Source: Afipia sp. (GTDB taxonomy: Bacteria > Pseudomonadota > Alphaproteobacteria > Rhizobiales > Xanthobacteraceae). Taken from it: a stretch of DNA of 64,000 bases. How positions within the stretch are numbered: the first letter of the stretch is position 1; each line of letters starts with the position of its first letter. The translations under genes were made by a program, and so were the position numbers. Positions 341 to 14,543 of this stretch are shown piece by piece. The notes below the pieces were generated by a model. The model saw nothing but the letters and a program-made list of their open reading frames with translations. It was not told the DNA's origin and searched no databases. The stretch covers positions 186,001 to 250,000 of the forward strand of contig JANQAK010000003.1 of the NCBI GenBank assembly GCA_024707075.1, read 5' to 3'.

Positions 341-1201
341 TTACATCGGCAGGGTTAGAACGAGTTCATCGGACGCCGCAGCCTGCGTGCCCGGAGCGGT
401 TGCTGACATGTCGGTGTCGGAGGCGGGATCGTGGGTGTCGATCTCCGCCGGCCGCACCTGCATCATGCTGCGCACGGCCTGCGCGAACATGGGTTGCTCG
501 AAGCGCTTGGCGCCTTCCGCATCGATCGCGAACAGGGGTCGGTATTTGCTGAGCCCGCTGTCGTCGATCATCACGAAGGTGCGATTGTCGAGGACGCGCC
601 AGCGCCCATCGGTCCGCGCCGTGACCACAGCGTGGTCTTCCCCGGTTGTCGTTTCACGAATGATGACGAGGCGAAGATCGTCCGCCGGCACGCCGGCCGC
701 GCGCAATGCGACCAGCTTGGCGATTGCATAGTCCTCGCAGTCGCCGGCCCCTGATGCGAGCGTGGCCAGCGGCGATGCCCAGCGGTCTTCGACGCCGTAT
801 TGCGCACGGTCGCTGACCGGGCGGATCGCCAGGTTGACCGCACGGTTGACCTCTCCGAGGCGGGCGAGACCCTCGCGGGCGGCGGCGACCTTCACGATCT
901 CGAGAAACTTGATGGCAGGGCGGGACGTGCAGCGCGCAGGGTCATTGCCGCAGCCGGCGATGATGGCGGCCTCCTTGGCAATCGTCTGCTCTACCTCCAG
1001 CCACTTGGCGCGGAGAGGACCATCGCTGAGCACGGACGTGGGAAGCCCGAAAGGCTCTGCGGCGGGGGATGGCTGAACGTCGGCAGGATCGGCGACGCTG
1101 TCACGCAACGCATAAGCTGCCGCGTGAGCGGTCCCACCCAACGCATTGATAGCGAATACAAATGCCAAAACGCCTGCGCGCGCAGTACTGAAAGCCGACA
1201 T
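341..1201 (-). CDS. LapG-like transglutaminase-fold cysteine protease (BTLCP family)
   Basis: This 286-residue protein has an N-terminal signal peptide ending near residue 27 (AHA). A papain/transglutaminase-like triad is visible: Cys in GDCEDYA, His in EDHAVV and Asp in VLDNRT. These are hallmarks of the bacterial transglutaminase-like cysteine proteinase family, which includes Pseudomonas LapG. LapG is a periplasmic protease that clips the N-terminal retention module of a giant type I-secreted adhesin and so releases it from the cell surface. The gene is divergent from such an adhesin and its exporter, which fits that role. The usual c-di-GMP-binding inhibitor LapD is not in this window. 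The family call is strong; the substrate is inferred from position. Confidence 0.85.
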   Translation of the reverse strand: MSAFSTARAGVLAFVFAINALGGTAHAAAYALRDSVADPADVQPSPAAEPFGLPTSVLSDGPLRAKWLEVEQTIAKEAAIIAGCGNDPARCTSRPAIKFLEIVKVAAAREGLARLGEVNRAVNLAIRPVSDRAQYGVEDRWASPLATLASGAGDCEDYAIAKLVALRAAGVPADDLRLVIIRETTTGEDHAVVTARTDGRWRVLDNRTFVMIDDSGLSKYRPLFAIDAEGAKRFEQPMFAQAVRSMMQVRPAEIDTHDPASDTDMSATAPGTQAAASDELVLTLPM

Positions 1202-1764
1202 GTGACGCCCCGTGTCCGGACATCGGCTCGCAATGGTCTGCCAGCTCGTGACCGGATCTTTTCGTCACAAGCTGTAGGGCGCAGACGCTTTTCAGCGCCT
1301 TAAGCGGAGGGGCAAAGTGCGATTTGGATTCAAATATGCGCAACTAGCGCTGAGCGGATTGTGTAAAATTGTAGATAGGGCTAACGCGCGTCCGCTCCAT
1401 CTATAAATGTACATAGACCTCAGTAATCATAATATATATAGCGTAATATCAGTAGAATTTAGCTATAGAATCTTTGAACAAAAGATATTTCCACATTTTT
1501 GGGGCGTGCGGGGCGTTGCTTTTAGGCTCGATTGGCCTCGGAAGGGCATTTCAAAGTTTGTACTGCGAGGGGAAATATCGATTTTAACTCATGGATTTAG
1601 AATATGACGCCGCGCTTACTCAGTCATCCCGGCGCAACTTTACTTAAAATCAGCGCGTTAAATCATGTTGTTTAGTTCAATCCACTATGGAGCCGTAGTC
1701 TTTGATGCTATGAATTCCGGATTATCGATTTCTTAAGATTAATTTTTGGGACGGGCGGGCTGCA
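1202..1764. other. AT-rich divergent intergenic region upstream of the adhesin
   Basis: About 560 bases separate the protease and adhesin start codons. From about 1320 to 1750 the composition falls well below the surrounding G+C, with stretches such as TCATAATATATATAGCG. No convincing gene is present: a 66-codon frame at 1407-1607 has no ribosome site and no recognisable features. The region probably carries both promoters and binding sites for a repressor that prefers AT-rich DNA. That regulatory role is an inference. Confidence 0.5.
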
Positions 1765-4700
1765 TTGAATTTTGCTGGACCATTTGACGCCAAATCTCTG
1801 AGCGACTCCCCAGTTTCGCTGGATGGAGAGGGTTTTGTGTTCGGCGCGAAGCCGGGCTTTGTCCAGCATCATCCGTCGGACGCCCACATCGTCGTGCCCG
1901 ACGCGCACCTGCTGTTTTCCGGCAATTACGTGCGGATCGGCAGTGATCTGATCATCTCAAGCGCCGATCAGAAATTCGTCGTCGGAAACTACTTCAAGGG
2001 CGAAGCCAGACCGGCGCTTATATCCAACGATGGCGCGACGCTCTCCGGCCAGATCGTGGACGCGCTGACCGGTCACGTTCACTACGCACAGGCGGCGGGA
2101 GCCGCACCTGCCGCAGCCCAGGTGATCGGCCACGTCCTGAAGATGTCCGGAAGCGCCACCGCGATCCGCAACGGCGTATCGATCGAACTTCATATCGGCG
2201 ACGCCGTTCAGAAGGGTGACGTGGTCCAGACCGGATCGGACTCGTCGATCGGCATGACGTTCGTCGATGGCAGCGCATTCGGCATGACCTCGAACGCGCG
2301 CATGGTGCTCAACGAGATGATCTACGATCCGAATGGATCGTCGAACTCGTCGTTGATCAGCCTGGTTCAGGGTACAATCACCTTCGTCGCGGGCCAGACC
2401 GCCAAGAACGGCAACATGCGCGTCGAGACGCCGGTTGCCACCATGGGCATTCGCGGCACGGCGGTGCTGGTGGAGATCGCGGCCGACAACGGTCCGACCA
2501 AGTTTTCCGTGCTGGTCGAGCCGGATGGGCACACCGGCTCCTACAACCTGTATGACAAGACCACCGGCCAGTTGATCGGCACAGTATCGCAGGCCGGGCA
2601 GGTGACGTTCGTTTCGGTCGGCGGCATCGGTCAGCCGCCCACCGCGATCGAACAGCTCAAGACGCTTCAGGACCAGCAGCAGGAAAAGGCCCTCATCCAG
2701 CAGGTTTTCCAGCTCTATTTTCCGAACTACAATCCGGACAATTCCAATCCGAAGTCACAGAAATTCGGGTCGACCAGCTACAACAACCTCGCCGAAATCA
2801 CCTTCACGACGACGACCAACCAGCAGCATACATTCCTGACGCAGATCGAACTTCGATTTGCCGTGATCGATCCTAATACGGGCGTCGTCACCTACCAGAA
2901 CCGGATTTTCTACAATACCAAGGCGCAATTTTCCGCCATTCCGGTTTTTGGCGATCAGGCATTTGTTTCGACCACGGAGACGTTCAAGTTCATGGACGTC
3001 GTCAGGATCGACGATCCGGATATTGGAAACGGGCCGTTCTACGACATCGGCGTACCGTTCGTTGCCGGCAGCGCGCTCATCCTCAGCGCGATCAGCACGA
3101 CAACGGCGCCGAGTGAGGCCGCGCTCAAGGAACTGCTCACCATCAACCAGACGACCGGCGAGGTGATGTTTAACCGGCAGGATTTCAACTTCCTCGACGA
3201 TGGCGAAACGGTCAAATACGTCATCCGGGTCACGGCCACGTCCGGCCCCGACACCGGATATGTCGAGATTCCTGTCACGATCACCGGCGCCAACGATGTG
3301 CCCGTGTTCGGCACGCCGGTTGCGGTCGAACTGCATGAAATCGGAATCGTGCCTCCGGAAACAGTGCCGCCGACCAATGGCGATGGCGTATTGCAGGAAA
3401 CAATCACGCTTCATTTCACCGATGCTGATTTCAGTGAAACCGGCAGCAACTACGCCGTGGACGTTTCCGCAGTCAGCACGACCGGCTCCACGGCGGGATT
3501 TGCTCCCGCCACGCTGGAGGCCACGCTTCGGGATTTCTTCAGTTTCGCTGCGACGCCGGTCACCAAGGACGTCAATCACACCGATGGTTATATTCACGGC
3601 ACGTTCCATGCCGCCGACAAGGCCTTCGACTATCTCGCCGAAGGCGAGCAACTGGTCATCACCTATACCGTCGAACTGACCGAGCAGGATTACGGCGGCG
3701 CGCATTTTTATCAGAGCTTCACGGTCACGATCATTGGGTCGAACGATATGCCGGTGATTGCTCTGGCCGATCTTGGGCAGACAGCCACGCTCACCGAAAC
3801 TGTCGGCGAAACGGGCGACACCACGCCGGACGTGCCAGATCCTGCATCGGGCGTTATTCACTTCAGCGACGCCGATCTCACGGATCGCCCGACGGCTTCC
3901 GTTACGTTACAAAGTGCCACCTATGTAAGCGTGAGCGGCGCCACGCTTGCTCTGACGACCGATCAGTTCAACGCCATCAAGAACGCTTTCGTGATTACGC
4001 AGGCGGGGAACACGAACAACGGCGGGATCGTCTGGTCCTACAGCATTCCCGACAACGAACTCGACTTTCTCGCCAAGGGCGAAAAGGTCGTTCTGACCTC
4101 GACGATTGAAATCGACGATCATCACGGCGGAACGACGAGCACGACCGTTACGATCAACATTTTCGCCGGCACCAACGACAAGCCCGTCATTACGTCGGAA
4201 GATCTGGCGGGCGCTGTCACCGAACCGGTGACGCCATCGGGTGATTTGACCGACGCTGGCGTTATCGCTTTCACCGACACCGACCTGACCGATGTGCATC
4301 TCGTCTCGCCGACCGGGACGCCGATCGGCCCAGCACTCGGTTCGCTGGCTGTCGTTCAAAATCAGGACACCACGGGGACGGGGCTCAATGGTCAATTGAC
4401 CTGGACCTACACGGTCGCTGCGTCCGCCGTCGAGTACCTTGCAAAGGATGAAACGCGGGTCGAGAAGTTCACCATCACGCTCAACGACCAGAATGGCGGC
4501 CTGATCACCAAAGAGATCGATGTCACCATTACCGGCACCAACGATGACGCCATCGTCAGCGTCGCGGCGGGCGACCACGATGCGGGCGCGGTGACTGAAG
4601 ATGCGCACACTGCTGGCAGCGAGACGACAAGCGGCACCTTGTCGTTCAGCGACGTCGACGTGATCGACACCCACATCGTCAACGCGGTGCCTGTCGGAAC

Positions 4701-6273
4701 GACGCTCGGAACATTGACGGCGGTCAAGACCACGGACACGAGCGGCGGCACCGGCGGCTCGATCACCTGGACCTATGACGTTGCGAACAGTGCGATCCAG
4801 TATCTGGCCGCGGGTGAGCACAAAGACGAGACGTTTACAGTTTCCGTGTTCGACGGAACCAGCACAGTCACCAAGGATGTGGTTGTCACCATAACGGGCA
4901 CCAACGACGTGCCGGTGATCGCTGGCATCTCGGCGGGAGAGGTCACCGAAGATTCCGCGCTCGATAGCGGCAATCTGGTCGCCAACGGATTACTGACGAT
5001 CAATGATGCCGATCACGACCAATCAGCATTCGTGGCACAGGCCTCCACCGCCGGCAGCAACGGTTACGGCACGTTCTCGGTCGACGTGAACGGGCATTGG
5101 ACCTACACGGCGGATAACAGCCAGACGGCAATCCAGCAGCTTGGCGATGGCGAGAGCCTGACAGACACGTTCACCGTACATTCGTTCGATGGAACGGCCG
5201 ATCAGGTGGTGACGGTCACCATTCACGGCACAAACGACGTGCCGGTCATTGCAGGTGTTGCGGGAGGAGATGTCACGGAGGATACCGCGCTCGACGGCGG
5301 CAATCTGGTCGCCAACGGATTACTGACGATCAATGATGCGGATCACGACCAGTCGACGTTCGTAGCGCAGGCCTCAACCGCCGGTAGCAACGGCTACGGG
5401 GCCTTCACGCTCGATGCGGCGGGCCACTGGACCTACACCGCGGATAACAGCCAGACGGTAATCCAGCAGCTTGGTGATGGCCAGAGTCTGACGGATGCAT
5501 TCACCGTGCATTCGTCCGATGGATCGGCTGACCAATTGGTAACTGTCACCATTCACGGCACAAACGACGCGCCCGCCATGAATATCGACAACGTGACGCC
5601 CGTTGAACTGGACGGCAATGGCGTGATGAAGGTATCGGGCGTCACGGTGTCCGATGTCGATGCGGGAAGCGATACGTTCTCCGTCACCGCTGTCGCAGAT
5701 AACGGGTCGGTTGCGACTGTCGGCGGCCATTCTCTTGATCCTGATGTTCCCGGCGGGGGTTTCACTGGAACCTTTGCACAGATCACCAGTCTGTTCACCG
5801 ATGGCGCGATCTATACGCCGAACTACGCTTCGCTGACCGACACCGACATGGTGACGCTGACCGTCACGGACGGTCATAGCGGCAGCGACACCGTGAATTT
5901 CATCTTCAAGCAGTATGAGCCAAACGGCGGTGTGACGCTGAATGGCACCACAGGGAAGGACTGGATTCTGTCGAGTACCGGCGATGACTTCATGATGGGG
6001 AATGGTGGCGGCGACAACTTCGTGTTCGCGGCCCAGTCCGGTCAGGACACGATCACGGACTTCCATTCCGGCACCGACCATATCGTGCTGAACGGCTACG
6101 GCACGCCGTTTACCGATGAGACGTCTTTCAACGCTTGGCTGGATACCCAAGTGACTGAGACTAGCGGTAACGCCGTGATCCATCTCGACGCCAACGATTC
6201 GATCACGCTGACGAGCGTGGCGAAAGCCAATCTCTCGGCCCATGATTTCATCATCCATCCGGCTGGCGCCTGA
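1765..6273 (+). CDS. large type I-secreted adhesin with FecR domain and VCBS/cadherin-like repeats
   Basis: This 1502-residue protein is acidic and rich in Thr, Asp and Gly. After about 105 residues comes an Ala-rich stretch (AQAAGAAPAAAQ, residues 108-119), then a FecR-type domain (about 121-240, containing GDAVQKGDVVQTG and ETPVATMGIRGTAV). A series of VCBS/cadherin-like repeats follows, each closing with ITGTND or IHGTND. The C-terminus (about 1390-1502) has GTTGKDWILSSTGDD and DTITDFHSGTDHIVL, typical of type I secretion targets. There is no Sec signal. The start is TTG; an in-frame stop lies at 1711-1713 with no ATG between, and a GTG at 1837 with GGAGAG upstream is an alternative. The transporter genes follow directly, so this is probably their cargo, a surface-held biofilm or attachment protein. 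Confidence 0.85.
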   Translation: MNFAGPFDAKSLSDSPVSLDGEGFVFGAKPGFVQHHPSDAHIVVPDAHLLFSGNYVRIGSDLIISSADQKFVVGNYFKGEARPALISNDGATLSGQIVDALTGHVHYAQAAGAAPAAAQVIGHVLKMSGSATAIRNGVSIELHIGDAVQKGDVVQTGSDSSIGMTFVDGSAFGMTSNARMVLNEMIYDPNGSSNSSLISLVQGTITFVAGQTAKNGNMRVETPVATMGIRGTAVLVEIAADNGPTKFSVLVEPDGHTGSYNLYDKTTGQLIGTVSQAGQVTFVSVGGIGQPPTAIEQLKTLQDQQQEKALIQQVFQLYFPNYNPDNSNPKSQKFGSTSYNNLAEITFTTTTNQQHTFLTQIELRFAVIDPNTGVVTYQNRIFYNTKAQFSAIPVFGDQAFVSTTETFKFMDVVRIDDPDIGNGPFYDIGVPFVAGSALILSAISTTTAPSEAALKELLTINQTTGEVMFNRQDFNFLDDGETVKYVIRVTATSGPDTGYVEIPVTITGANDVPVFGTPVAVELHEIGIVPPETVPPTNGDGVLQETITLHFTDADFSETGSNYAVDVSAVSTTGSTAGFAPATLEATLRDFFSFAATPVTKDVNHTDGYIHGTFHAADKAFDYLAEGEQLVITYTVELTEQDYGGAHFYQSFTVTIIGSNDMPVIALADLGQTATLTETVGETGDTTPDVPDPASGVIHFSDADLTDRPTASVTLQSATYVSVSGATLALTTDQFNAIKNAFVITQAGNTNNGGIVWSYSIPDNELDFLAKGEKVVLTSTIEIDDHHGGTTSTTVTINIFAGTNDKPVITSEDLAGAVTEPVTPSGDLTDAGVIAFTDTDLTDVHLVSPTGTPIGPALGSLAVVQNQDTTGTGLNGQLTWTYTVAASAVEYLAKDETRVEKFTITLNDQNGGLITKEIDVTITGTNDDAIVSVAAGDHDAGAVTEDAHTAGSETTSGTLSFSDVDVIDTHIVNAVPVGTTLGTLTAVKTTDTSGGTGGSITWTYDVANSAIQYLAAGEHKDETFTVSVFDGTSTVTKDVVVTITGTNDVPVIAGISAGEVTEDSALDSGNLVANGLLTINDADHDQSAFVAQASTAGSNGYGTFSVDVNGHWTYTADNSQTAIQQLGDGESLTDTFTVHSFDGTADQVVTVTIHGTNDVPVIAGVAGGDVTEDTALDGGNLVANGLLTINDADHDQSTFVAQASTAGSNGYGAFTLDAAGHWTYTADNSQTVIQQLGDGQSLTDAFTVHSSDGSADQLVTVTIHGTNDAPAMNIDNVTPVELDGNGVMKVSGVTVSDVDAGSDTFSVTAVADNGSVATVGGHSLDPDVPGGGFTGTFAQITSLFTDGAIYTPNYASLTDTDMVTLTVTDGHSGSDTVNFIFKQYEPNGGVTLNGTTGKDWILSSTGDDFMMGNGGGDNFVFAAQSGQDTITDFHSGTDHIVLNGYGTPFTDETSFNAWLDTQVTETSGNAVIHLDANDSITLTSVAKANLSAHDFIIHPAGA
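4906..5565 (+). repeat. two near-identical tandem 330-bp VCBS repeat units
   Basis: Units 4906-5235 and 5236-5565 each encode 110 residues beginning DVPVIAG and ending TVTIHGTN. They are far more alike, in protein and in DNA, than the other repeats of the adhesin. For instance GGCAATCTGGTCGCCAACGG occurs unchanged in both. This points to recent duplication or ongoing homogenization. Confidence 0.85.
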
Positions 6274-6426
6274 CGGCTGGCGGGCGACGTTAACTGCGTT
6301 ATCTCCCGCGTCCCAAATGCCCCGGGAATTATGGCATAATCCCCTGCATAGAGGCGAAACCGTCGCCGACAAATGATATGGTGGCGCGAGCCACAATGGC
6401 CATTTCCGATCGGCTAGAACGCATCA

Positions 6427-8190
6427 ATGCAGCACGCAAAGACATCACATCAGGGGCATTCGCCCCGTTCCGAACTCGGTGCCGCGCTGCATGCCTGCCG
6501 CAGCGCGTTCGTCGGCGTCGGCGTGATGAGCTGCGTCATCAATATCCTTTACCTGACCGGCTCTTTCTTCATGCTGGAGGTCTACGACCGTGTGCTGCCG
6601 AGCCGCAGCATTCCGACGCTGGTCGGCCTCATCGTGCTGGCGGGCGGTCTCTACGTGGTTCAGGGCATCCTTGACCTGATCCGCAGCCGCATCCTGATCC
6701 GGATCGGATCGACGCTGGACGAAATGCTGAGCCGCCGGGTCTACGAAATCGTCGTGCGGATGCCGCTGCTGATCGGCAACCGCAGCGAGGGGCTTCAGCC
6801 GCTGCGCGATCTCGATAACGTTCGCTCGTTCCTGTCCGGCATGGGGCCGGGCGCGCTGTTCGACCTGCCGTGGCTGCCGCTTTATCTGGCGATCTGTTTC
6901 GCCTTTCACCCGCTGATCGGCGTCACCGCGCTGGTCGGCGCTATTATCCTGATCGTGCTGACCATCCTCACCGAGTACCTGACCCACGACCCCATGAAGC
7001 GCTCCACGGGCCTGGCGATGCGGCGGCAGGACCTCGCGCTGTCCAGCCGCCGGAATGCCGAAGTGCTGACCGCCATGGGCATGGCGGGCCGCGTCGGCAG
7101 GCGCTGGGAGGATTCCAACCGCGATTATCTCGCCAGCAATCAGCGGGCCAGCGATGTCGCGGGCGGCCTCGGCGCCATCGCCAAGGTGATGCGGATGATG
7201 CTGCAATCCGCCGTGCTGGGCGTCGGCGCCTATCTGGTCATCAACCAGCAGGCGACGGCGGGCATCATCATCGCGGGGTCGATCCTGAGCGCGCGGGCGC
7301 TGGCGCCGGTCGATCTGGCTATCGCGCACTGGAAGGGCTTTGTCGCCGCGCGGCAAAGCTGGCATCGCCTCAACCGGCTGCTCAGCATGATGCCCGAGCA
7401 GGCTGCACCGACCCTGCTGGAAACGCCGTCCGGCAAGCTCTCCGTCGAGACGCTAACCGTCAGTCCGCCGGGCGAGCAGAAGGCGGTCGTTCACGACATT
7501 ACGTTCGCTCTGGAGGCCGGTCAGGCCGTGGGTGTCATCGGCCCTAGCGGTTCCGGCAAATCCTCCCTGGTGCGCGCGCTGGTGGGCGTCTGGCAGCCGC
7601 TGCGCGGCAAGGTGCGCCTCGATGGTGCAGCGCTCGATCAATGGTCGCCGGAAATCCTCGGCCGCCATATCGGCTACCTGCCGCAGGACGTCGAATTGTT
7701 CGCCGGCACCATCGCGCAGAACATTTCGCGCTTCGAGGACAATGCGTCATCCGACGATATCATCGCCGCGGCGCGCGAAGCGCGCGTCCATGACATGATT
7801 ATCGGCATGAAGGACGGCTACGATACCCAGATCGGCGATCAGGGCAGCGTGCTGTCGGCCGGGCAGGCGCAGCGCATTGCGCTGGCCCGCGCGCTCTATG
7901 GCAATCCGTTCCTCGTGGTGCTGGACGAGCCCAACTCCAATCTCGACAGCGAAGGCGACGCCGCGCTGAACAAGGCGGTTCTCGCGGTTCGCGAGCGCGG
8001 CGGCGTGGTGGTCGTGGTCGCGCATCGCCCGATCGGCATCGAGAGCGTCGATCTGGTTCTGGTGCTGAAGGACGGACGGGTGCAGGCGTTTGGTCCGAAG
8101 GACAGTGTTCTCGGTCAGGTGCTGCAACGCCCGATAGCCGTACCGCCCGCGATCAAGATCGTGTCCGACAAGGGAGGAGCGCAATCATGA
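6427..8190 (+). CDS. type I secretion ABC transporter (PrtD/HlyB-like permease-ATPase)
   Basis: This 587-residue half-transporter has an N-terminal membrane domain of about six helices (residues 27-300) fused to an ABC ATPase. Visible motifs are Walker A GPSGSGKSS (372-380), signature LSAGQAQ (476-482), Walker B LVVLDEP (496-502) and the H-loop histidine in AHRP (about 532). It lacks an N-terminal C39 peptidase domain, as expected for exporters of large RTX/VCBS proteins rather than bacteriocins. The gene follows the adhesin by about 150 bases and overlaps the adaptor gene start by four bases (ATGA), which indicates translational coupling. The outer-membrane TolC partner is not in the window. 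Confidence 0.92.
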   Translation: MQHAKTSHQGHSPRSELGAALHACRSAFVGVGVMSCVINILYLTGSFFMLEVYDRVLPSRSIPTLVGLIVLAGGLYVVQGILDLIRSRILIRIGSTLDEMLSRRVYEIVVRMPLLIGNRSEGLQPLRDLDNVRSFLSGMGPGALFDLPWLPLYLAICFAFHPLIGVTALVGAIILIVLTILTEYLTHDPMKRSTGLAMRRQDLALSSRRNAEVLTAMGMAGRVGRRWEDSNRDYLASNQRASDVAGGLGAIAKVMRMMLQSAVLGVGAYLVINQQATAGIIIAGSILSARALAPVDLAIAHWKGFVAARQSWHRLNRLLSMMPEQAAPTLLETPSGKLSVETLTVSPPGEQKAVVHDITFALEAGQAVGVIGPSGSGKSSLVRALVGVWQPLRGKVRLDGAALDQWSPEILGRHIGYLPQDVELFAGTIAQNISRFEDNASSDDIIAAAREARVHDMIIGMKDGYDTQIGDQGSVLSAGQAQRIALARALYGNPFLVVLDEPNSNLDSEGDAALNKAVLAVRERGGVVVVVAHRPIGIESVDLVLVLKDGRVQAFGPKDSVLGQVLQRPIAVPPAIKIVSDKGGAQS

Positions 8191-9584
8191 AAGGGCCGAC
8201 CCTCGCAGGCACCGAACGCACCCTCCGCGGCATCCTGAACGCGATTTTTTCACCGCTGGAGCGTCTTTCGATTTTTAAAAGTCTCGACCAGCCGGGATCC
8301 CGCGGCTCGATCCGCTTTCACCTGATCGTGGGACTGGTCGTCGTTACGCTGCTGACCTGCGGGCTAGGCGGCTGGGCCTCCACCGCGCAAATCTCCGGCG
8401 CGCTGATCGCACCGGGCTCCATCGTCGTCGATTCCAACGTCAAGAAAGTGCAGCATCCGACTGGTGGCGTCGTCGGCGAGGTGAGGGCGCGCGACGGCGA
8501 CCGCGTCAAGGCCGGCGATGTCGTGGTGCGCCTCGACGATACGATCACCAAGGCCAGCCTCGCGATCGTCACAAAGGGCCTCAACGGGCTTCTGGCGCGC
8601 AGGGCGCGGCTGCTGGCCGAGCAGGACGGCGCGGAGCGGATTACGTTTCCGCCGGAGCTGATGGAGTCGTTCGCCGATCCCGAGGTGCAGTCGCTGATCG
8701 GAAACGAGATCAAGCTGTTTCAGGTCCGCTCGTCGGGGCGTGTCGGCCAGAAGGCCCAGCTCAAGGAGCGCATCTTGCAGCTCAAGGAAGAAATCAGCGG
8801 TCTGGAAGCCCAGGAAAACGCCAAGTCGCGCGAGATCGAACTCATTCAGAAAGAACTTGTGGGCGTCCGCGACCTGTTCGCCAAGAATCTCGTGCAGATT
8901 TCCCGGCTGACGGTGCTGGAGCGGGACGCCGCGCGGCTGGATGGCGACCGCGCGCAGTTCGTCGCCCAGAAGGCGCAGGCCAAGGGCAAGATCACCGAAA
9001 TCGAGTTGCAGATCATCCAGATCGACAAGGATCTCTCCAGCGAAGTTTCCAAGGAAATGCGCGAGATCAACGACAAGATCGGCGAGTTCGTCGAGCGCAA
9101 GGTGACTGCCGAGGATCAACTGCGCCGCATCGACATCCGCGCGCCGCAGGACGGCATGGTGCTCCAGTCCACGGTGCATACCGTGGGCGGCGTCATCACC
9201 GCCGGCGACGCCATCATGCTGATCGTGCCGGAATCCGATAACCTCTCCGTCGAGGCCAAGGTCAACCCGCAGGATATCGATCAACTGCGGATCGGGCAGA
9301 AGACCCTACTGCGGCTCTCGGCCTTCAACCAGCGCACCACGCCGGAACTGAACGGGACGATCAGCCGCATTTCGCCGGATACCACGACCGATCAGCGCAC
9401 GGGCCAGAGCTATTACACCATCCGCGTGTCCCTGCCGCCGGAAGAAGTGGCGAAGCTCGGCGACGTCAAACTGATCCCCGGCATGCCGGTCGAGGCTTTT
9501 GTGCAGACCGGCGAACGCACCATGATATCCTATCTCGCGAAGCCGCTGAGCGACCAGCTCATGCGCGCGTTCCGGGAAAAGTGA
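8187..9584 (+). CDS. HlyD/PrtE-type membrane fusion protein
   Basis: This 465-residue periplasmic adaptor has a cytoplasmic N-terminal tail and one transmembrane helix at about residues 47-66. A beta-barrel/lipoyl half-motif follows (VQHPTGGVVGEV, RDGDRVKAGDVVVRLDD). Next come long coiled-coil helices (about 150-310) and the second lipoyl/barrel part (RIDIRAPQDGMV through SYYTIRVSLP). Length and order match type I secretion adaptors, which link the ABC protein to TolC. It overlaps the ABC gene (ATGA) and is followed 18 bases later by the cyclase gene, so it sits inside one likely transcript. Confidence 0.92.
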   Translation: MKGPTLAGTERTLRGILNAIFSPLERLSIFKSLDQPGSRGSIRFHLIVGLVVVTLLTCGLGGWASTAQISGALIAPGSIVVDSNVKKVQHPTGGVVGEVRARDGDRVKAGDVVVRLDDTITKASLAIVTKGLNGLLARRARLLAEQDGAERITFPPELMESFADPEVQSLIGNEIKLFQVRSSGRVGQKAQLKERILQLKEEISGLEAQENAKSREIELIQKELVGVRDLFAKNLVQISRLTVLERDAARLDGDRAQFVAQKAQAKGKITEIELQIIQIDKDLSSEVSKEMREINDKIGEFVERKVTAEDQLRRIDIRAPQDGMVLQSTVHTVGGVITAGDAIMLIVPESDNLSVEAKVNPQDIDQLRIGQKTLLRLSAFNQRTTPELNGTISRISPDTTTDQRTGQSYYTIRVSLPPEEVAKLGDVKLIPGMPVEAFVQTGERTMISYLAKPLSDQLMRAFREK

Positions 9585-9602
9585 CGGATATCGGCCTGCG
9601 GC

Positions 9603-11855
9603 ATGGTGCATGGCGTCCTGAAATCGGCGGTCCGTTTCCTCGCCCGTCTGCGGCACTACGCGAGGCTGTTCGGCTACGCGCGAATGCTGTGCGTCCTCCT
9701 GCTGATTGCGCTGCTCGGCGTTCGCGTTGCCGATCCGTTTCCGCTCGAGGAATTGCGCGTCCGCACCTTCGACGGCTATCAGATTCTTCAGCCGCGCAAG
9801 ACGACGCAACGTCCGGTCGTCATCGTCGACCTCGATGAAAAGAGCCTTGCCAAATTCGGGCAGTGGCCGTGGCCAAGAACGCGCGTCGCCGATCTCGTCA
9901 AGCGGCTGACCGATCTCGGCGCGGCTGCCATCGCCTTCGATATTGTCTTCGCGGAGCCGGACCGGCTGTCGCCGGCCCTTGTGGCCGATTCATTTCGCGA
10001 TCTCGACGACGAGAGCCGGGCGAAGTTGCGGACACTGCCGAGCAACGATCAGGTGTTCGCCGATGTGCTGCGGCGGTCGCCCGCGGTTCTCGGTGAATCC
10101 GGCCTGCCGAAATTCGTTCCGCAACCCGACCTGAAACTGCCGTTGACAGGACTTGCGACACTGGGCGGCGATCCGCGCCCGTTCCTGCTGAATTTCCCAG
10201 GGCTGCTGCGTAACGTCCCCATTCTTGAAGAAGCGGCGCCGGGACGGGGACTGTTCACGATCCGCACCGAGCGCGACGGTATCGTTCGCCGCGTCCCGAT
10301 GATCATGCAGGCGCAGGGCGAGTTGATGCCTTCGCTGACGTTCGAGATGCTGCGCATCGTCACCAAATCCGACACTATCCTCGTCAAATCCGACGAGGCC
10401 GGCGTCAAAAGCGTGGCGGTGCCGGGATTTGAAATCCCGACCGACCGCAACGGCCAGCTCTGGGTGCATTTCGCCAGGCATGACGCGGCGCGTTACGTGT
10501 CCGCCGCCGATGTGCTGGAGGGCAATGTCGGCCCCGACAAGATTTCCCGCAAGCTGATCCTGATCGGCACCTCCGCGGTCGGATTGCTGGACGTCAAGAC
10601 CACGCCGCTCGATCCGGTGATGCCGGGTGTCGAGGTCCATGCGCAGGTGCTGGAAAGCGCGTTGACGCGATCCGTGCTGTCGCAACCGAATTACGCCATC
10701 GGCGCGGAGCTGCTGGCCGCGATCCTGTTCGGGCTGGCGATCATCTGGCTCACACCGGTCCTCAGCGCCATCATGCTGCTGGTGTTCGGCGCCGTCATCG
10801 TCGCCATCATGGTGGCGGCGTCGTGGTATTTCTTCACGGAACACAGGCTGCTGATCGATTTCACGTTCCCGCTGCTCGCCAGCAGTGCGATCTATCTGGT
10901 GCTGGTATTCAGCAGCTATTTCCGCGAACAGGCGCAGCGCCGCCGCATCCGCTCCGCGTTCGGTCAATACCTGTCGCCGGCGCTGGTCGAGCAATTGGCG
11001 CAGTCGCCGGAGAAACTCGTGCTGGGCGGCGAGGAGCGCGACATGACCATCATGTTCAGCGACGTGCGCGGCTTCACCACCATCTCGGAATCGTTCAAGC
11101 ACGATCCGCAGGGCCTGACCTCGCTGATGAACCGGTTCCTGACGCCGCTGACCAATGCGATTCTCGATCGCAAGGGGACTATCGACAAATACATGGGCGA
11201 CGCCATCATGGCGTTCTGGAACGCGCCGCTGAACGATCAGGCGCACCAGATCAATGCCTGCGAGGCGGCGCTCGACATGATCGATCGTATCGAGGTGCTG
11301 AATATCGAACGCGAGCGCGAGGCAAGGGAAAGCGGCAAGCCGTTCATCCCGATGCATGTCGGGATCGGATTGAACACCGGCACCTGCGTGGTCGGCAACA
11401 TGGGGTCGAATCTGAGGTTCGACTACTCGGTGCTTGGCGACAGTGTGAACCTCGCCTCCCGGCTTGAGGGGCAGTCGAAATCCTACGGCGTTCCGATCAT
11501 CGCCGGTTCGGCGACCGCGCTGGCAGCGAAGGACAAGTTCGCGATCCTCGAACTCGACTTCATCACCGTGAAGGGGAAGAAGGAGCCCGAAGTGATCTAT
11601 GCCATCGCCGGACGGGAAGATGTCGCGAAATCCGGCCAGTTCCAGCGGCTGCGCAATCTGAGCATCGAGATGCTGGCCTGCTACCGCAGCCGCGACTGGG
11701 ATGGCGCGCTCGCTGCGATTGCGAAGGGGCGCATTGCCGATGAAGCCAGGAGTTTTACGGCTTTCTACGATCTTTATTCCGAGCGTATCGAGGCGTTCCG
11801 GAAGGCACCACCGCCGGACGACTGGAATGGCGTGTTTGCCTTGACGACGAAATAA
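9603..11855 (+). CDS. CHASE2-domain class III adenylate/guanylate cyclase
   Basis: This 750-residue membrane enzyme has an N-terminal helix (about residues 27-43), a large extracytoplasmic CHASE2 sensor (about 45-340), three closely spaced helices (about 355-435) and a class III cyclase domain (about 475-650). Metal-binding aspartates are visible in MFSDVRGFT and YMGDAIMAFW, and the transition-state Asn and Arg in SVNLASRLE. A C-terminal helical tail follows. It should make cAMP (less likely cGMP) in response to an envelope signal. It lies 18 bases after the secretion adaptor gene and before an MBL hydrolase and a cNMP-binding protein, suggesting a signalling module linked to the adhesin. The link is inferred from position only. 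Confidence 0.9.
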   Translation: MVHGVLKSAVRFLARLRHYARLFGYARMLCVLLLIALLGVRVADPFPLEELRVRTFDGYQILQPRKTTQRPVVIVDLDEKSLAKFGQWPWPRTRVADLVKRLTDLGAAAIAFDIVFAEPDRLSPALVADSFRDLDDESRAKLRTLPSNDQVFADVLRRSPAVLGESGLPKFVPQPDLKLPLTGLATLGGDPRPFLLNFPGLLRNVPILEEAAPGRGLFTIRTERDGIVRRVPMIMQAQGELMPSLTFEMLRIVTKSDTILVKSDEAGVKSVAVPGFEIPTDRNGQLWVHFARHDAARYVSAADVLEGNVGPDKISRKLILIGTSAVGLLDVKTTPLDPVMPGVEVHAQVLESALTRSVLSQPNYAIGAELLAAILFGLAIIWLTPVLSAIMLLVFGAVIVAIMVAASWYFFTEHRLLIDFTFPLLASSAIYLVLVFSSYFREQAQRRRIRSAFGQYLSPALVEQLAQSPEKLVLGGEERDMTIMFSDVRGFTTISESFKHDPQGLTSLMNRFLTPLTNAILDRKGTIDKYMGDAIMAFWNAPLNDQAHQINACEAALDMIDRIEVLNIEREREARESGKPFIPMHVGIGLNTGTCVVGNMGSNLRFDYSVLGDSVNLASRLEGQSKSYGVPIIAGSATALAAKDKFAILELDFITVKGKKEPEVIYAIAGREDVAKSGQFQRLRNLSIEMLACYRSRDWDGALAAIAKGRIADEARSFTAFYDLYSERIEAFRKAPPPDDWNGVFALTTK

Positions 11856-11989
11856 AATGAGACGAAATGCCGCCGCTATCGTCCGCGCCGTCATCTGGCA
11901 AGACCTTTTTCGGTGAACAGCGCACGCTATCGCGCTGGCGAATATGACAGCCGCATGCAATTCTCGCGAAGGGTTTATTGAGTTCTTTC

Positions 11990-12820
11990 ATGCCGACCAC
12001 AATGTCCGTGCGGTTCTGGGGTGTTCGCGGAAGCATCCCATGTCCCGGTCCAAACACCGTGCGCTATGGCGGCAATACGTCGTGCGTCGAGGTTCGCTGC
12101 GGCGAGCACCTGCTGGTTTTCGACGCGGGGTCGGGATTGCGCCTGCTTGGCGGTGCGCTGGCCGATGAGGCTCCGCATGTCGACATCGATTTGTTTTTGA
12201 GTCACTGCCATATCGATCACCTGATCGGGCTGCCGTTCTTCGTGCCCGCCTTTGTGAAGGGAAACCGGCTTCGCCTGTGGGCCGGCAATCTCAAGCCGGC
12301 GGGTGGTGTAAAGGAAGCCGTCCGCAAGCTGATGAGCTATCCGCTATTTCCGATCGAGATCGAAGCTGCGCAGGGCAGCGTCGAGTTCACCGATTTTGCG
12401 CCCGGCGACGTGCTGATGCCGCGGCCCGGAATCAAGGTCATGACCGCGGCGCTCAACCATCCCGGCGGTGCCACGGGATACCGTGTCGAATTTGGCGGCC
12501 GCGCCATGGCCTACATCACCGATACCGAACTTAGCGCGGATGCCATCGATCCGGCGCTGTTGGCGCTCGCGCGGGATGCGTCGATTGTTATCATCGATAC
12601 GACATATACGGACGAGGAACTGCCGGAGCATGTCGGCTGGGGCCATTCGAGCTGGCAGCAGGCCGTCCGGCTGGCCAATGAAGCCGGTGTCGGCAAGCTC
12701 TATTTGTTTCATCACGATCCCGAGCATGACGACAACGAGATGGACCGTATCGCGGAAGCCGCAGCCAGGGCGCGACCGGGCACCGTGGTTGCAAGGGAAG
12801 GACTCTCAATTGAGATCTAG
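11990..12820 (+). CDS. metallo-beta-lactamase-fold hydrolase, candidate cyclic-nucleotide phosphodiesterase
   Basis: The N-terminus VRFWGVRGSIPCPG, the GGNTSC segment and the metal motif HCHIDHLIGLPF identify an MBL-fold hydrolase of about 275 residues. Further metal ligands are probably the His of ALNHPGG, the Asp of YITDTE and the late His of FHHDPEHDD. Related proteins include PhnP, RNase Z-like and class II cyclic-nucleotide phosphodiesterases. The position between a cyclase and a cNMP-binding protein makes a phosphodiesterase role attractive, but the sequence does not prove it. The start is uncertain: TTG at 11978 is best spaced from GAAGGG, while ATG at 11990 or 12002 fits the family's usual N-terminus. 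Confidence 0.8.
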   Translation: MPTTMSVRFWGVRGSIPCPGPNTVRYGGNTSCVEVRCGEHLLVFDAGSGLRLLGGALADEAPHVDIDLFLSHCHIDHLIGLPFFVPAFVKGNRLRLWAGNLKPAGGVKEAVRKLMSYPLFPIEIEAAQGSVEFTDFAPGDVLMPRPGIKVMTAALNHPGGATGYRVEFGGRAMAYITDTELSADAIDPALLALARDASIVIIDTTYTDEELPEHVGWGHSSWQQAVRLANEAGVGKLYLFHHDPEHDDNEMDRIAEAAARARPGTVVAREGLSIEI

Positions 12821-12899
12821 GCGAGGCTTGCGCATGTTTTTGGCAGGGCGCGCGGGGCGATAGATCGCCGTTTTCAGGAATTATCGCATATGGATTTGA

Positions 12900-12921
12900 C
12901 GCCCGATTAACACATCGGGCG
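12900..12921 (+). terminator. hairpin downstream of the MBL gene
   Basis: CGCCCGAT and ATCGGGCG form an 8-bp perfect stem with a six-base loop, 80 bases after the MBL gene's stop. There is no T-run, so it may be a weak or Rho-assisted terminator, or an attenuator before the cNMP-binding gene. Confidence 0.4.
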
Positions 12922-12995
12922 CGAGAACCGTTGTTGCGCAACGCGCGGAGCGGCATAATACATCCCAAATTTCCTTCAGCACCAGGTTGATTCCG

Positions 12996-14543
12996 ATGGA
13001 CATGTCAGGACTCGTTTCCGGAGCCGGCGGTTTTATCGCATCCGCGTTCGTGGTCGCCGGCTACACGATGCGGACGATGATCCCGCTCCGCATCTTCGGG
13101 ATACTCACCAACGTTGTGCTGATCGTTTTTTCAGTCATGCACCATCATTACCCGGTGATGGCGCTGCACATGATCTTGCTACCGCTGAACGTCTACCGCC
13201 TGCGCGAAATGCTGCTGCTGGTTCGCGAGGTGAAGAAGTCCGTCAACAGCGACCTGTCGATGGCGTGGCTGAAGCCGTTCATGACCGAGCGGAAATGCAA
13301 GGCCGGCGAGATCCTGTTCTACAAGCATGAAAAAGCCGAGGAAATGTTCTACATTGTCAGCGGACGGTATCGGCTTGTGGAGTCGGGAATCGAATTGCCG
13401 ATCGGCGCCATCGTCGGCGAACTCGGCATGCTGTCGCCGTCGAACAAGCGGACCCAGACGCTCGAATGCCTTGAGGGCGGGATCATCCTCAGCGTGACCT
13501 ATCAGAAGGTGGAGGAGCTTTACGTCCAGAATCCCGAGTTCGGATTTTACTTCCTGCGGCTGGTCAGCGCGCGGCTCTTCCAGAGATCTTGGCAAGCTGG
13601 AGGAGCAGTTGGCCGGAAGCGGCGCGCGGGTGGCATCGTGAGGATCAGGGTCAAAGTCCCGCCGTCGCCGTTCCGTCTGCTCAAGGAGCGGTACTTCGGC
13701 GAGGAGACGCGCAACCCGCGGGTCGCGCGCGCAGCATTGGCGCGGTTGTCCGCGCGACTGCCGCCTGACGTCGTCCCGATCGTCAGCGAGGCCGTTCATT
13801 CGCTGATCGATTATCAGGACCCGGATTATGCGCTGGCCTATCTCGACAGGATCGAACGCTACGTGGGCCCGGTCGGGATTACCTTGCCCAATCTCGCCGA
13901 ACTTGCACAGTTGCTGTCGGACCGGATGCACTTTGTGGATCCGATCCGGATCGCGCAGTTGAAGCTGGCCGAGGCGGGTGGTGCAAATGCCCAGCCGGAT
14001 CCGGTGTCCGTCGACAGGATCGAAAAATTTCGCTGGGATGAAGTGATCCCGATGCTTCCGCCGAAGGCGGCGGCGCCTGCGCTCGATCTGTTTCAGCGGC
14101 TGCGTCTGGCGAGGTTGTCGCGCAGGAGTGTGAGGCTGCGTTTCAGCTCACGGACCCGTTTCAAGCTGCAACGGTTGAAGTGGCTCGCCGCGGCGCGGGT
14201 CACGCGGCCCTTTTCCGAACGGTTCAAGCGGGAACGGGTATGGGTGGAGCGCTGGCTTCATATGATCGATCGAAGTCTGGTGAAGCAGCCGGAGGCAACC
14301 GTCGCGATCGTCAGGACCGCCAGCCTCATCAAGGGGCATGGCGATACCTACCAGAATGGCCTCGCGCAATGGAATGCGATCATCGACGGTCTGGTCAAGC
14401 CGACATGCGACGGCACGCTGCCGCTGCGGAGGCTTGGCGATGCCATCCAGGAAGTGCGCGAAGCTGCCATCGGCGAGCAGGCACAGGGCCGGCTGTTGAA
14501 TGCAGTCGAGCAATTGAGATCGCAGGCGCTGGCCGGAACGTGA
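12996..14543 (+). CDS. cNMP-binding membrane protein joined by an apparent frameshift to a DUF6537-like protein
   Basis: Residues 1-60 hold two or three hydrophobic helices. About 75-195 is a cyclic-nucleotide-binding domain (KAGEILFYKHEKAEEMFYIVSG, GAIVGELGMLSPSNKRTQT). From about residue 215 the sequence resembles the DUF6537 domain that I know from the C-terminal half of indolepyruvate oxidoreductase subunit beta (LIDYQDPDYALAYLDRIE, ASLIKGHGDTYQNGL). The two parts were probably separate genes. Removing one base near 13584 lets the first part end NLGKLEEQLAGSGARVAS at a TGA (13639-13641) that overlaps an in-frame GTG at 13638 as GTGA. So this is either a real fusion or a sequencing/mutational frameshift. 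An ATG start at 12996 is preferred over TTG at 12987. Confidence 0.75.
   Translation: MDMSGLVSGAGGFIASAFVVAGYTMRTMIPLRIFGILTNVVLIVFSVMHHHYPVMALHMILLPLNVYRLREMLLLVREVKKSVNSDLSMAWLKPFMTERKCKAGEILFYKHEKAEEMFYIVSGRYRLVESGIELPIGAIVGELGMLSPSNKRTQTLECLEGGIILSVTYQKVEELYVQNPEFGFYFLRLVSARLFQRSWQAGGAVGRKRRAGGIVRIRVKVPPSPFRLLKERYFGEETRNPRVARAALARLSARLPPDVVPIVSEAVHSLIDYQDPDYALAYLDRIERYVGPVGITLPNLAELAQLLSDRMHFVDPIRIAQLKLAEAGGANAQPDPVSVDRIEKFRWDEVIPMLPPKAAAPALDLFQRLRLARLSRRSVRLRFSSRTRFKLQRLKWLAAARVTRPFSERFKRERVWVERWLHMIDRSLVKQPEATVAIVRTASLIKGHGDTYQNGLAQWNAIIDGLVKPTCDGTLPLRRLGDAIQEVREAAIGEQAQGRLLNAVEQLRSQALAGT
13638..14543 (+). other. probable original separate gene: stand-alone DUF6537-like domain
   Basis: If the one-base insertion is removed, this part starts at a GTG overlapping the upstream stop and encodes about 301 residues without the oxidoreductase gamma domain that normally precedes DUF6537 in IorB. 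It contains runs of basic residues (RLRLARLSRRSVRLRF) and the conserved LIKGHGDT stretch. Its function is unknown. The partnership with a cNMP sensor suggests an effector role, but that is inference. Confidence 0.5.

Follow-up and report, generated by a model that had tools for sequence, protein, structure and literature searches.

Adhesin, type I exporter and CHASE2 adenylate cyclase genes stand together in an Afipia sp. genome (5.3 Mb, 7 contigs) and are inherited together by its relatives. We observed this at the level of gene content, gene order, co-inheritance and intact active-site residues. These genes may form a co-inherited surface-signalling module consisting of a type I secretion system (T1SS) adhesin with a FecR domain, a PrtD-HlyD exporter and a CHASE2 cyclase, in which CHASE2 would read the FecR anchor. 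We place this reading slightly short of an even chance.

Gene layout and predicted domains

The window is the whole stretch of DNA that was analysed (64,000 nucleotides, positions 186001-250000 of contig JANQAK010000003.1). Open reading frames and domain matches recovered the genes named in the first-pass annotation at their positions, including the divergent protease and adhesin genes and the cyclase start 18 bases past HlyD (Table 1). A type I exporter (ABC + HlyD) is present, both models (TIGR01842, TIGR01843) scoring over cut-off. The layout appears very unlikely to have arisen by chance because the gene arrangement is conserved across the family.

Table 1. Features of the gene cluster in the window.
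Feature	Position	Strand	Support
C93 (LapG-like, BTLCP) cysteine protease, 286 aa	341..1201	-	PF06035 E 6.9e-23
VCBS adhesin (1502 aa), presumably secreted by the type I exporter next to it	1765..6273	+	VCBS TIGR01965, Cadherin_4, FecR
Adhesin N-terminal domain, residues 29-104	1849..2076	+	AlphaFold2, phmmer
Adhesin Ala-Gln, residues 108-109, linker before FecR	2086..2091	+	alignment
Adhesin FecR / retention-module-like domain, residues 152-250 (Pfam)	2218..2514	+	
PrtD-type T1SS ABC transporter	6427..8190	+	TIGR01842 E 5.8e-223, over cut-off
HlyD-type periplasmic adaptor	8187..9584	+	TIGR01843 E 1.2e-115, over cut-off
CHASE2 adenylate cyclase, 750 aa	9603..11855	+	PF05226 E 3.2e-57, PF00211 E 9e-22
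MBL-fold hydrolase, candidate cAMP phosphodiesterase	11978..12820	+	PF12706 E 1.1e-20
Fused ORF, 518 aa: 3-TM cNMP-binding protein + DUF6537 protein	12987..14543	+	domain matches

The FecR domain of the adhesin (PF04773, E 9.2e-10) had gone unmentioned in the earlier annotation. A predicted model of this region shows a FecR-type fold, with structural matches within residues 116-314 to the signalling domain of PupR and to the anchoring domain in 5ix9. Ahead of it lies an N-terminal domain predicted by AlphaFold2 with a pLDDT of ~90 over most of its length, which phmmer recovered in adhesins of four other families and which we recognized by eye in a fifth (L127). The two domains are joined by a linker (pLDDT <50) whose Ala-Gln pair was invariant in 27/27 aligned adhesins and nearly so in 41 sequences. 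This pair is also kept where the LapG-like gene was not found (G224, G227); its conservation therefore does not establish a role as a cut site.

CHASE2 receptors have an extracytoplasmic sensor, here joined to a cytoplasmic cyclase; the two parts span residues 33-378 (CHASE2) and 480-667 (cyclase domain). The catalytic residues, which we take to be those of adenylate cyclase, were identical in 22/22 aligned family rows. All checks of catalytic residues compared presumed key positions in alignments of family rows. Because the cyclase has adenylate-cyclase residues, its product is predicted to be cAMP rather than cGMP, and of the two nucleotides first proposed we retain cAMP.

Co-inheritance in the family and across the class

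The family survey covered 80 genomes from 47 genera, including that of the window. We found the cyclase (at least 57% identity) in 24/80 genomes and 17/47 sampled genera, one copy (G248) being cut at a contig edge; the tie between secretion and cyclic-nucleotide genes proposed earlier recurs on this scale. The N-terminal 330 aa of the adhesin matched in 23/80 genomes at E 1.3e-45 or better, weaker matches being left out (for example G253, 1.6e-32, and G200, 7.9e-29). This adhesin N-terminus was present in 22 of the 24 cyclase genomes vs 1 of the 56 others (22/2/1/55; Fisher P = 2.3e-16, kinship uncorrected, with the 57% and 1.3e-45 thresholds set after the data were seen). Five genera were mixed, and cyclase and adhesin presence agreed in three of them.

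hlyD was visible in 20 of 23 relatives, and in 20/20 it immediately preceded the cyclase, both genes being on one strand. The gaps ranged from -4 to 65 bases, with one of 341 (20 stretches). The full adhesin-PrtD-HlyD-cyclase order was found on one stretch in 12/23 relatives, and in nine others the contig ends next to the cluster (L200, L206, L209, L210, L211, L214, L215, L218, L219). G197 has exporter and cyclase with no adhesin; in G124 the adhesin adjoins the cyclase with no exporter between. The C93, MBL and cNMP-binding (CNBD) genes vary in position around this core: MBL and CNBD lie downstream of the cyclase in L197, L213 and L216, and MBL is divergent from the adhesin in L212, L217 and L222. 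Judged from gene order, the fixed core is adhesin, exporter and cyclase, with MBL (12/23 family relatives) and the 3-TM CNBD protein (10/23) optional and mobile. We argue for a functional link because the genes shift position yet remain together.

Seen from the cNMP-binding side alone, the linkage looked loose. Among 80 of the 163 loci encoding a relative of this protein, 18 carried a cyclase at 70% identity or more. Twelve of these 18 were ordered adhesin-PrtD-HlyD-cyclase-MBL-CNBD (L014-L022, L031-L033), one had its Lap-like genes on the opposite side (L062), and in five no exporter could be seen (L034-L037, L063; L036 runs into the end of its contig). In Rhodopseudomonas, Nitrobacter and Bradyrhizobium, the CNBD gene often stood without a cyclase in the stretch, which reached at most 10 kb to either side (L024-L030, L038-L061, some stretches being short). 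The first-pass annotation had named as refuting evidence a cyclase-MBL-CNBD trio found mostly away from secretion genes. The family survey does not show this, given hlyD before the cyclase in 20/20 stretches; the MBL and CNBD genes are optional companions.

A class survey used 96 genomes, labelled one per family. A FecR match lay within 10 kb of 39/106 CHASE2 matches, in 25/45 genomes, where 1.75 were expected under random placement with rounded genome sizes and contig ends ignored; two CHASE2 rows under the Pfam cut-off were excluded from the 106. We read 40 stretches, 34 of them with CHASE2 matches out of the 106, and distinguished two types of FecR partner, judging signal peptides by eye. 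Type A (the window, L127, L128, L129, L131, L132) is an adhesin with no apparent signal peptide and with the N-terminal domain before FecR. Type B has an apparent signal peptide, and some members lie beside a TPR/outer-membrane-barrel protein (scanned: L133, L142). In two other families (L127, L131) the order adhesin-PrtD-HlyD-cyclase is that of the window, with overlaps or gaps of at most 12 bases; in three more (L128, L129, L132) the adhesin is divergent from the cyclase, and L132 also has a C93 gene after the cyclase. Among 38 FecR ORFs of at least 550 aa, 14 were near CHASE2 and 24 were not.

In a tree of 70 CHASE2 cyclases, the 31 adhesin-type rows, a label also carried by family rows whose stretch, as read, contains no adhesin, all fell among 39 on one side (support 81). 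None fell among the 28 on another side (support 91), and three long-branched rows lay outside. The adhesin-type label needs seven changes on this tree, several branches of which are weak.

Protease, LapD and cyclic-nucleotide effectors

The protease has a C155-H190-D205 triad and a D154/E156 calcium-site pair, and its key residues were the same in 17/17 aligned rows. It is similar to the solved chains 4u65 and 4fgo, which we take to be LapG proteins; the NCBIfam LapG equivalog scored 73.5 bits, under its cut-off of 320. C93 genes in the family fall into two classes, separated by eye from the scores: one scores strongly and occurs in nearly all genomes, and the other is LapG-like, scores less well and occurs in 30/80. 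The LapG-like gene tracks the adhesin (18/5/12/45 across 80 family genomes, P = 4e-6). A LapG-like match was missing in 5/23 adhesin genomes, two of these five being incomplete or fragmented drafts. A scan of residues 1-420 in 27 adhesins found the LapG-type cleavage site [T/A/P]AAG, as given in excerpted text of PMC13090378, before FecR in one (L198) and after FecR in one (L131). It was not found in the first 420 residues of the window adhesin.

The earlier statement that LapD is absent holds genome-wide: PF16448 gave zero matches in the whole Afipia sp. genome. Since 14 control genomes also gave zero matches, we used a separate positive control set, in which 30/100 phylum genomes matched; one strong match (L253) combined LapD_MoxY_N, GGDEF and EAL. 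Weak PF16448 matches occurred in 20/80 family genomes, including nine that bear the cyclase. Ten matches were fetched from these nine and nine ORFs were scanned: eight were HisKA_3 kinases and the ninth gave no family.

The metal ligands of the MBL protein were the same in 12/12 aligned rows. It matched NF041851 over most of its length (E 1.6e-13; 50.6 bits, cut-off 400), and RNase Z models outscored NF041851 over part of its length. The fused ORF contains cNMP_binding (102-181) and DUF6537 (264-467) domains, and the phosphate-binding residues of the former were the same in 10/10 aligned rows. Relatives encode two separate, shortly overlapping genes, for a cNMP-binding protein of ~217 aa with three TM segments (counted by eye) and a DUF6537 protein of ~300 aa. 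What had been described as one membrane cNMP-binding protein is therefore kept as its 3-TM cNMP-binding part, and the single 518-aa protein is not. At the junction the window and G209, which has a 97% identical cyclase, differ in length by a single base. This may be an assembly error, since frames are also broken elsewhere in the genome: a C93 gene is split between two frames, and a stop codon interrupts a FecR gene.

Among the 80 of 163 relatives of the cNMP-binding protein that were covered, the nearest named ones were from Afipia (76-89% identity, best segment) and a Bradyrhizobiaceae MAG (90%). Other protein searches covered the best 120 of 1574 matches and the best 120 of 268 matches. Relatives of a cyclic-nucleotide-gated (CNG) ion channel (Ion_trans + cNMP_binding) were found in 7/23 family relatives; the window gave no match at E 1e-3. 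The gene content suggests that the LapG-like protease, the MBL hydrolase and the 3-TM cNMP-binding protein are optional members of the module, as is the CNG channel of some relatives.

A proposed signalling route, its alternatives and known systems

The family-wide co-inheritance of adhesin, exporter and cyclase suggests that the anchoring domain reports the state of the adhesin to the cell interior. The FecR anchor would remain in the periplasm with the remainder of the adhesin outside, and the periplasmic CHASE2 domain would sense whether the anchor is present, loaded or cleaved. This would set cAMP production, up or down with adhesin state; cNMP-binding membrane proteins and channels would relay the signal, the MBL enzyme would terminate it, and LapG, where present, would reset it by cutting the adhesin. 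We favour a direction from adhesin to cyclase because FecR stands beside CHASE2. The module is supported by the agreement of co-occurrence, hlyD-cyclase order, other families, FecR-CHASE2 proximity, the cyclase tree and the FecR model, and by the recurrence of cyclic-nucleotide effectors (3-TM CNBD and CNG channel) in the loci. Published precedents of FecR with CHASE2, as excerpted from PMC9239204 and PMC5192318, also support it. More tentatively, the retention module of T1SS adhesins across Alphaproteobacteria might, besides anchoring, act as a signalling domain of the FecR type that a CHASE2 cyclase reads. The adhesin itself would then be the sensor in a cAMP pathway of its own, leading from surface state through cAMP to an ion channel or other membrane effectors.

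The first-pass annotation had proposed the opposite direction, with adhesin export or release tied to cAMP or cGMP. In this reading cAMP would steer export or LapG release through the cNMP-binding membrane protein, in place of LapD and c-di-GMP. In its favour, no LapD was found, a 3-TM CNBD and often a LapG-like protease share the locus, and in Shewanella putrefaciens cAMP-CRP is reported to strengthen the interaction of the Lap-type pair BpfD-BpfG (abstract of PMC8938473). Against it, five of the 23 adhesin genomes have no LapG-like match, the published motif precedes FecR in one of 27 adhesins, the CNBD gene reaches 10 of the 23 relatives, and the CNBD protein has no periplasmic domain evident by eye that could hold LapG. 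We consider this direction unlikely. Somewhat less unlikely is co-regulation only, with the cyclase sensing an unrelated envelope cue, a shared transcript serving the same life stage, and cAMP acting through global regulators. The operon-like layout with short gaps is consistent with it, as are a few genomes that keep the cyclase without the exporter and a distance-matrix test, which gave no specific coevolution signal and so adds nothing to the module reading. A shared transcript is insufficient, however, because FecR also recurs beside CHASE2 in divergent arrangements and in clusters with no type I exporter in view. Least probable, in our judgement, is continued control of the adhesin by c-di-GMP, acting through a receptor that does not resemble LapD, with the cyclase as a side branch. 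Its precedent is DvhD, described in excerpts of PMC13090378 as a c-di-GMP receptor that steers a LapG-type protease although its sequence is unlike that of LapD. Because DvhD does the job of LapD without resembling it, a missing LapD is, by analogy, compatible with c-di-GMP control.

The module in which CHASE2 would read the adhesin anchor resembles several known systems in part. Campylobacterota have a cluster of CHASE2-adenylate cyclase, phosphodiesterase, FecR-protein and TPR-protein (excerpts of PMC9239204). As there, the window places a CHASE2 cyclase beside a FecR-domain surface protein, here supplied by the FecR domain of the adhesin, and a putative cAMP phosphodiesterase. In contrast to that description, FecR in the window is part of a presumed T1SS adhesin, an exporter and a LapG-like protease are present, and none of the seven window genes scanned has a TPR domain. 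Type B clusters (for example L133, L142) likewise join FecR to a CHASE2 cyclase, but their FecR protein has an apparent signal peptide, lacks the adhesin N-domain and accompanies a TPR/OM-barrel protein, with no type I exporter tagged in the stretches.

Lap systems, in which the adhesin retention module sits in the periplasm (excerpts of PMC13090378), share with the window a LapG-type protease, a PrtD/HlyD exporter and a large adhesin, the FecR domain near the N-terminus of the window adhesin being a candidate retention module. The window differs in that no LapD and no conserved [T/A/P]AAG site were found, and in its extra N-terminal domain before FecR and its adenylate cyclase in the operon. 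The Burkholderia BiofilmReg operon, linked to biofilm, also sets a FecR-domain protein (LysM-FecR) beside a CHASE2 sensor; according to excerpts of PMC5192318, its output is a histidine kinase rather than a cyclase, and its FecR protein is not an adhesin. In the BpfD/BpfG/BpfA system of S. putrefaciens cAMP likewise touches a Lap-type adhesin, but the abstract of PMC8938473 describes a CRP route acting on BpfD and mentions no dedicated cyclase. FecR with a CHASE2 cyclase or kinase is thus known, as is an effect of cAMP on a Lap-type system. A CHASE2 cyclase within a T1SS adhesin operon was not found in any of the open PMC papers listed, which falls short of proof that none has been printed.

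The cues recognised by CHASE2 domains were stated as unknown in 2016 (excerpts of PMC5192318). Should FecR-type adhesin anchors prove to be one of these cues, a sensor class of wide distribution would gain a partner, adhesins would be reporters of attachment besides glue, and Lap-like adhesins without LapD would have a nucleotide circuit of their own. Elsewhere in the Afipia sp. genome, PrtD, HlyD and C93 genes form a further locus, which also encodes another giant protein (L147).

Adhesin linker and repeats

Across the 27 adhesins whose N-termini were aligned, an Ala-Gln pair was invariant in the linker between the N-terminal domain and FecR (27/27). The pair was kept even in genomes where the LapG-like protease was not found. 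We also observed a tandem repeat in the VCBS region of the window adhesin (330-base unit, 2.1 copies).

Secretion genes elsewhere in the window's genome

The same genome encodes a second PrtD-HlyD-C93 locus (L147), where a 2132-aa cadherin/RTX/VWA giant lies on the opposite strand. We found no CHASE2 tag in the L147 stretch. A C93 protease gene of the strong-scoring class, unbroken in most relatives, is split across two frames in this genome (L001/L004). Taken together with the other frame breaks in the genome, this split may be an assembly error.

Features and their coordinates
Feature	Location	Coordinates
Ala-Gln of adhesin linker	window	2086-2091
VCBS tandem repeat	window	4885-5573
cNMP-binding protein	window	12987-13640
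Split C93 gene	G000:C4	143462-143939
Second PrtD-HlyD-C93 locus (L147)	G000:C6	1175000-1190000
577-aa CHASE2 protein (L146), CHASE2 match	G000:C3	506286-507272
DUF3095 protein	L199	3132-4310

Cyclic-nucleotide effectors and CHASE2 proteins

Among solved-structure sequences, the L014 homologue of the window's cNMP-binding protein matched PycTIR, a Pycsar defence effector, best (E 7.7e-6). Cyclic-nucleotide-gated ion channel genes were present in loci L200, L201, L209, L212, L217, L222, L226 and L062. In L199, a DUF3095 protein is encoded a short distance downstream of the cyclase; neither the MBL-fold hydrolase nor the cNMP-binding protein was seen in that stretch.

A Pfam scan of the L146 CHASE2 protein found neither a cyclase nor a kinase domain. 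In two loci of distant Hyphomicrobiales (L087, L093), a CHASE2 cyclase and a FecR-domain gene are divergent, with the 3-TM cNMP-binding gene alongside. In L145 (G095), a FecR protein adjoins a CHASE2 protein whose sequence carries the letter motifs of histidine kinases, a pair resembling the Burkholderia BiofilmReg operon (LysM-FecR protein and CHASE2 histidine kinase).
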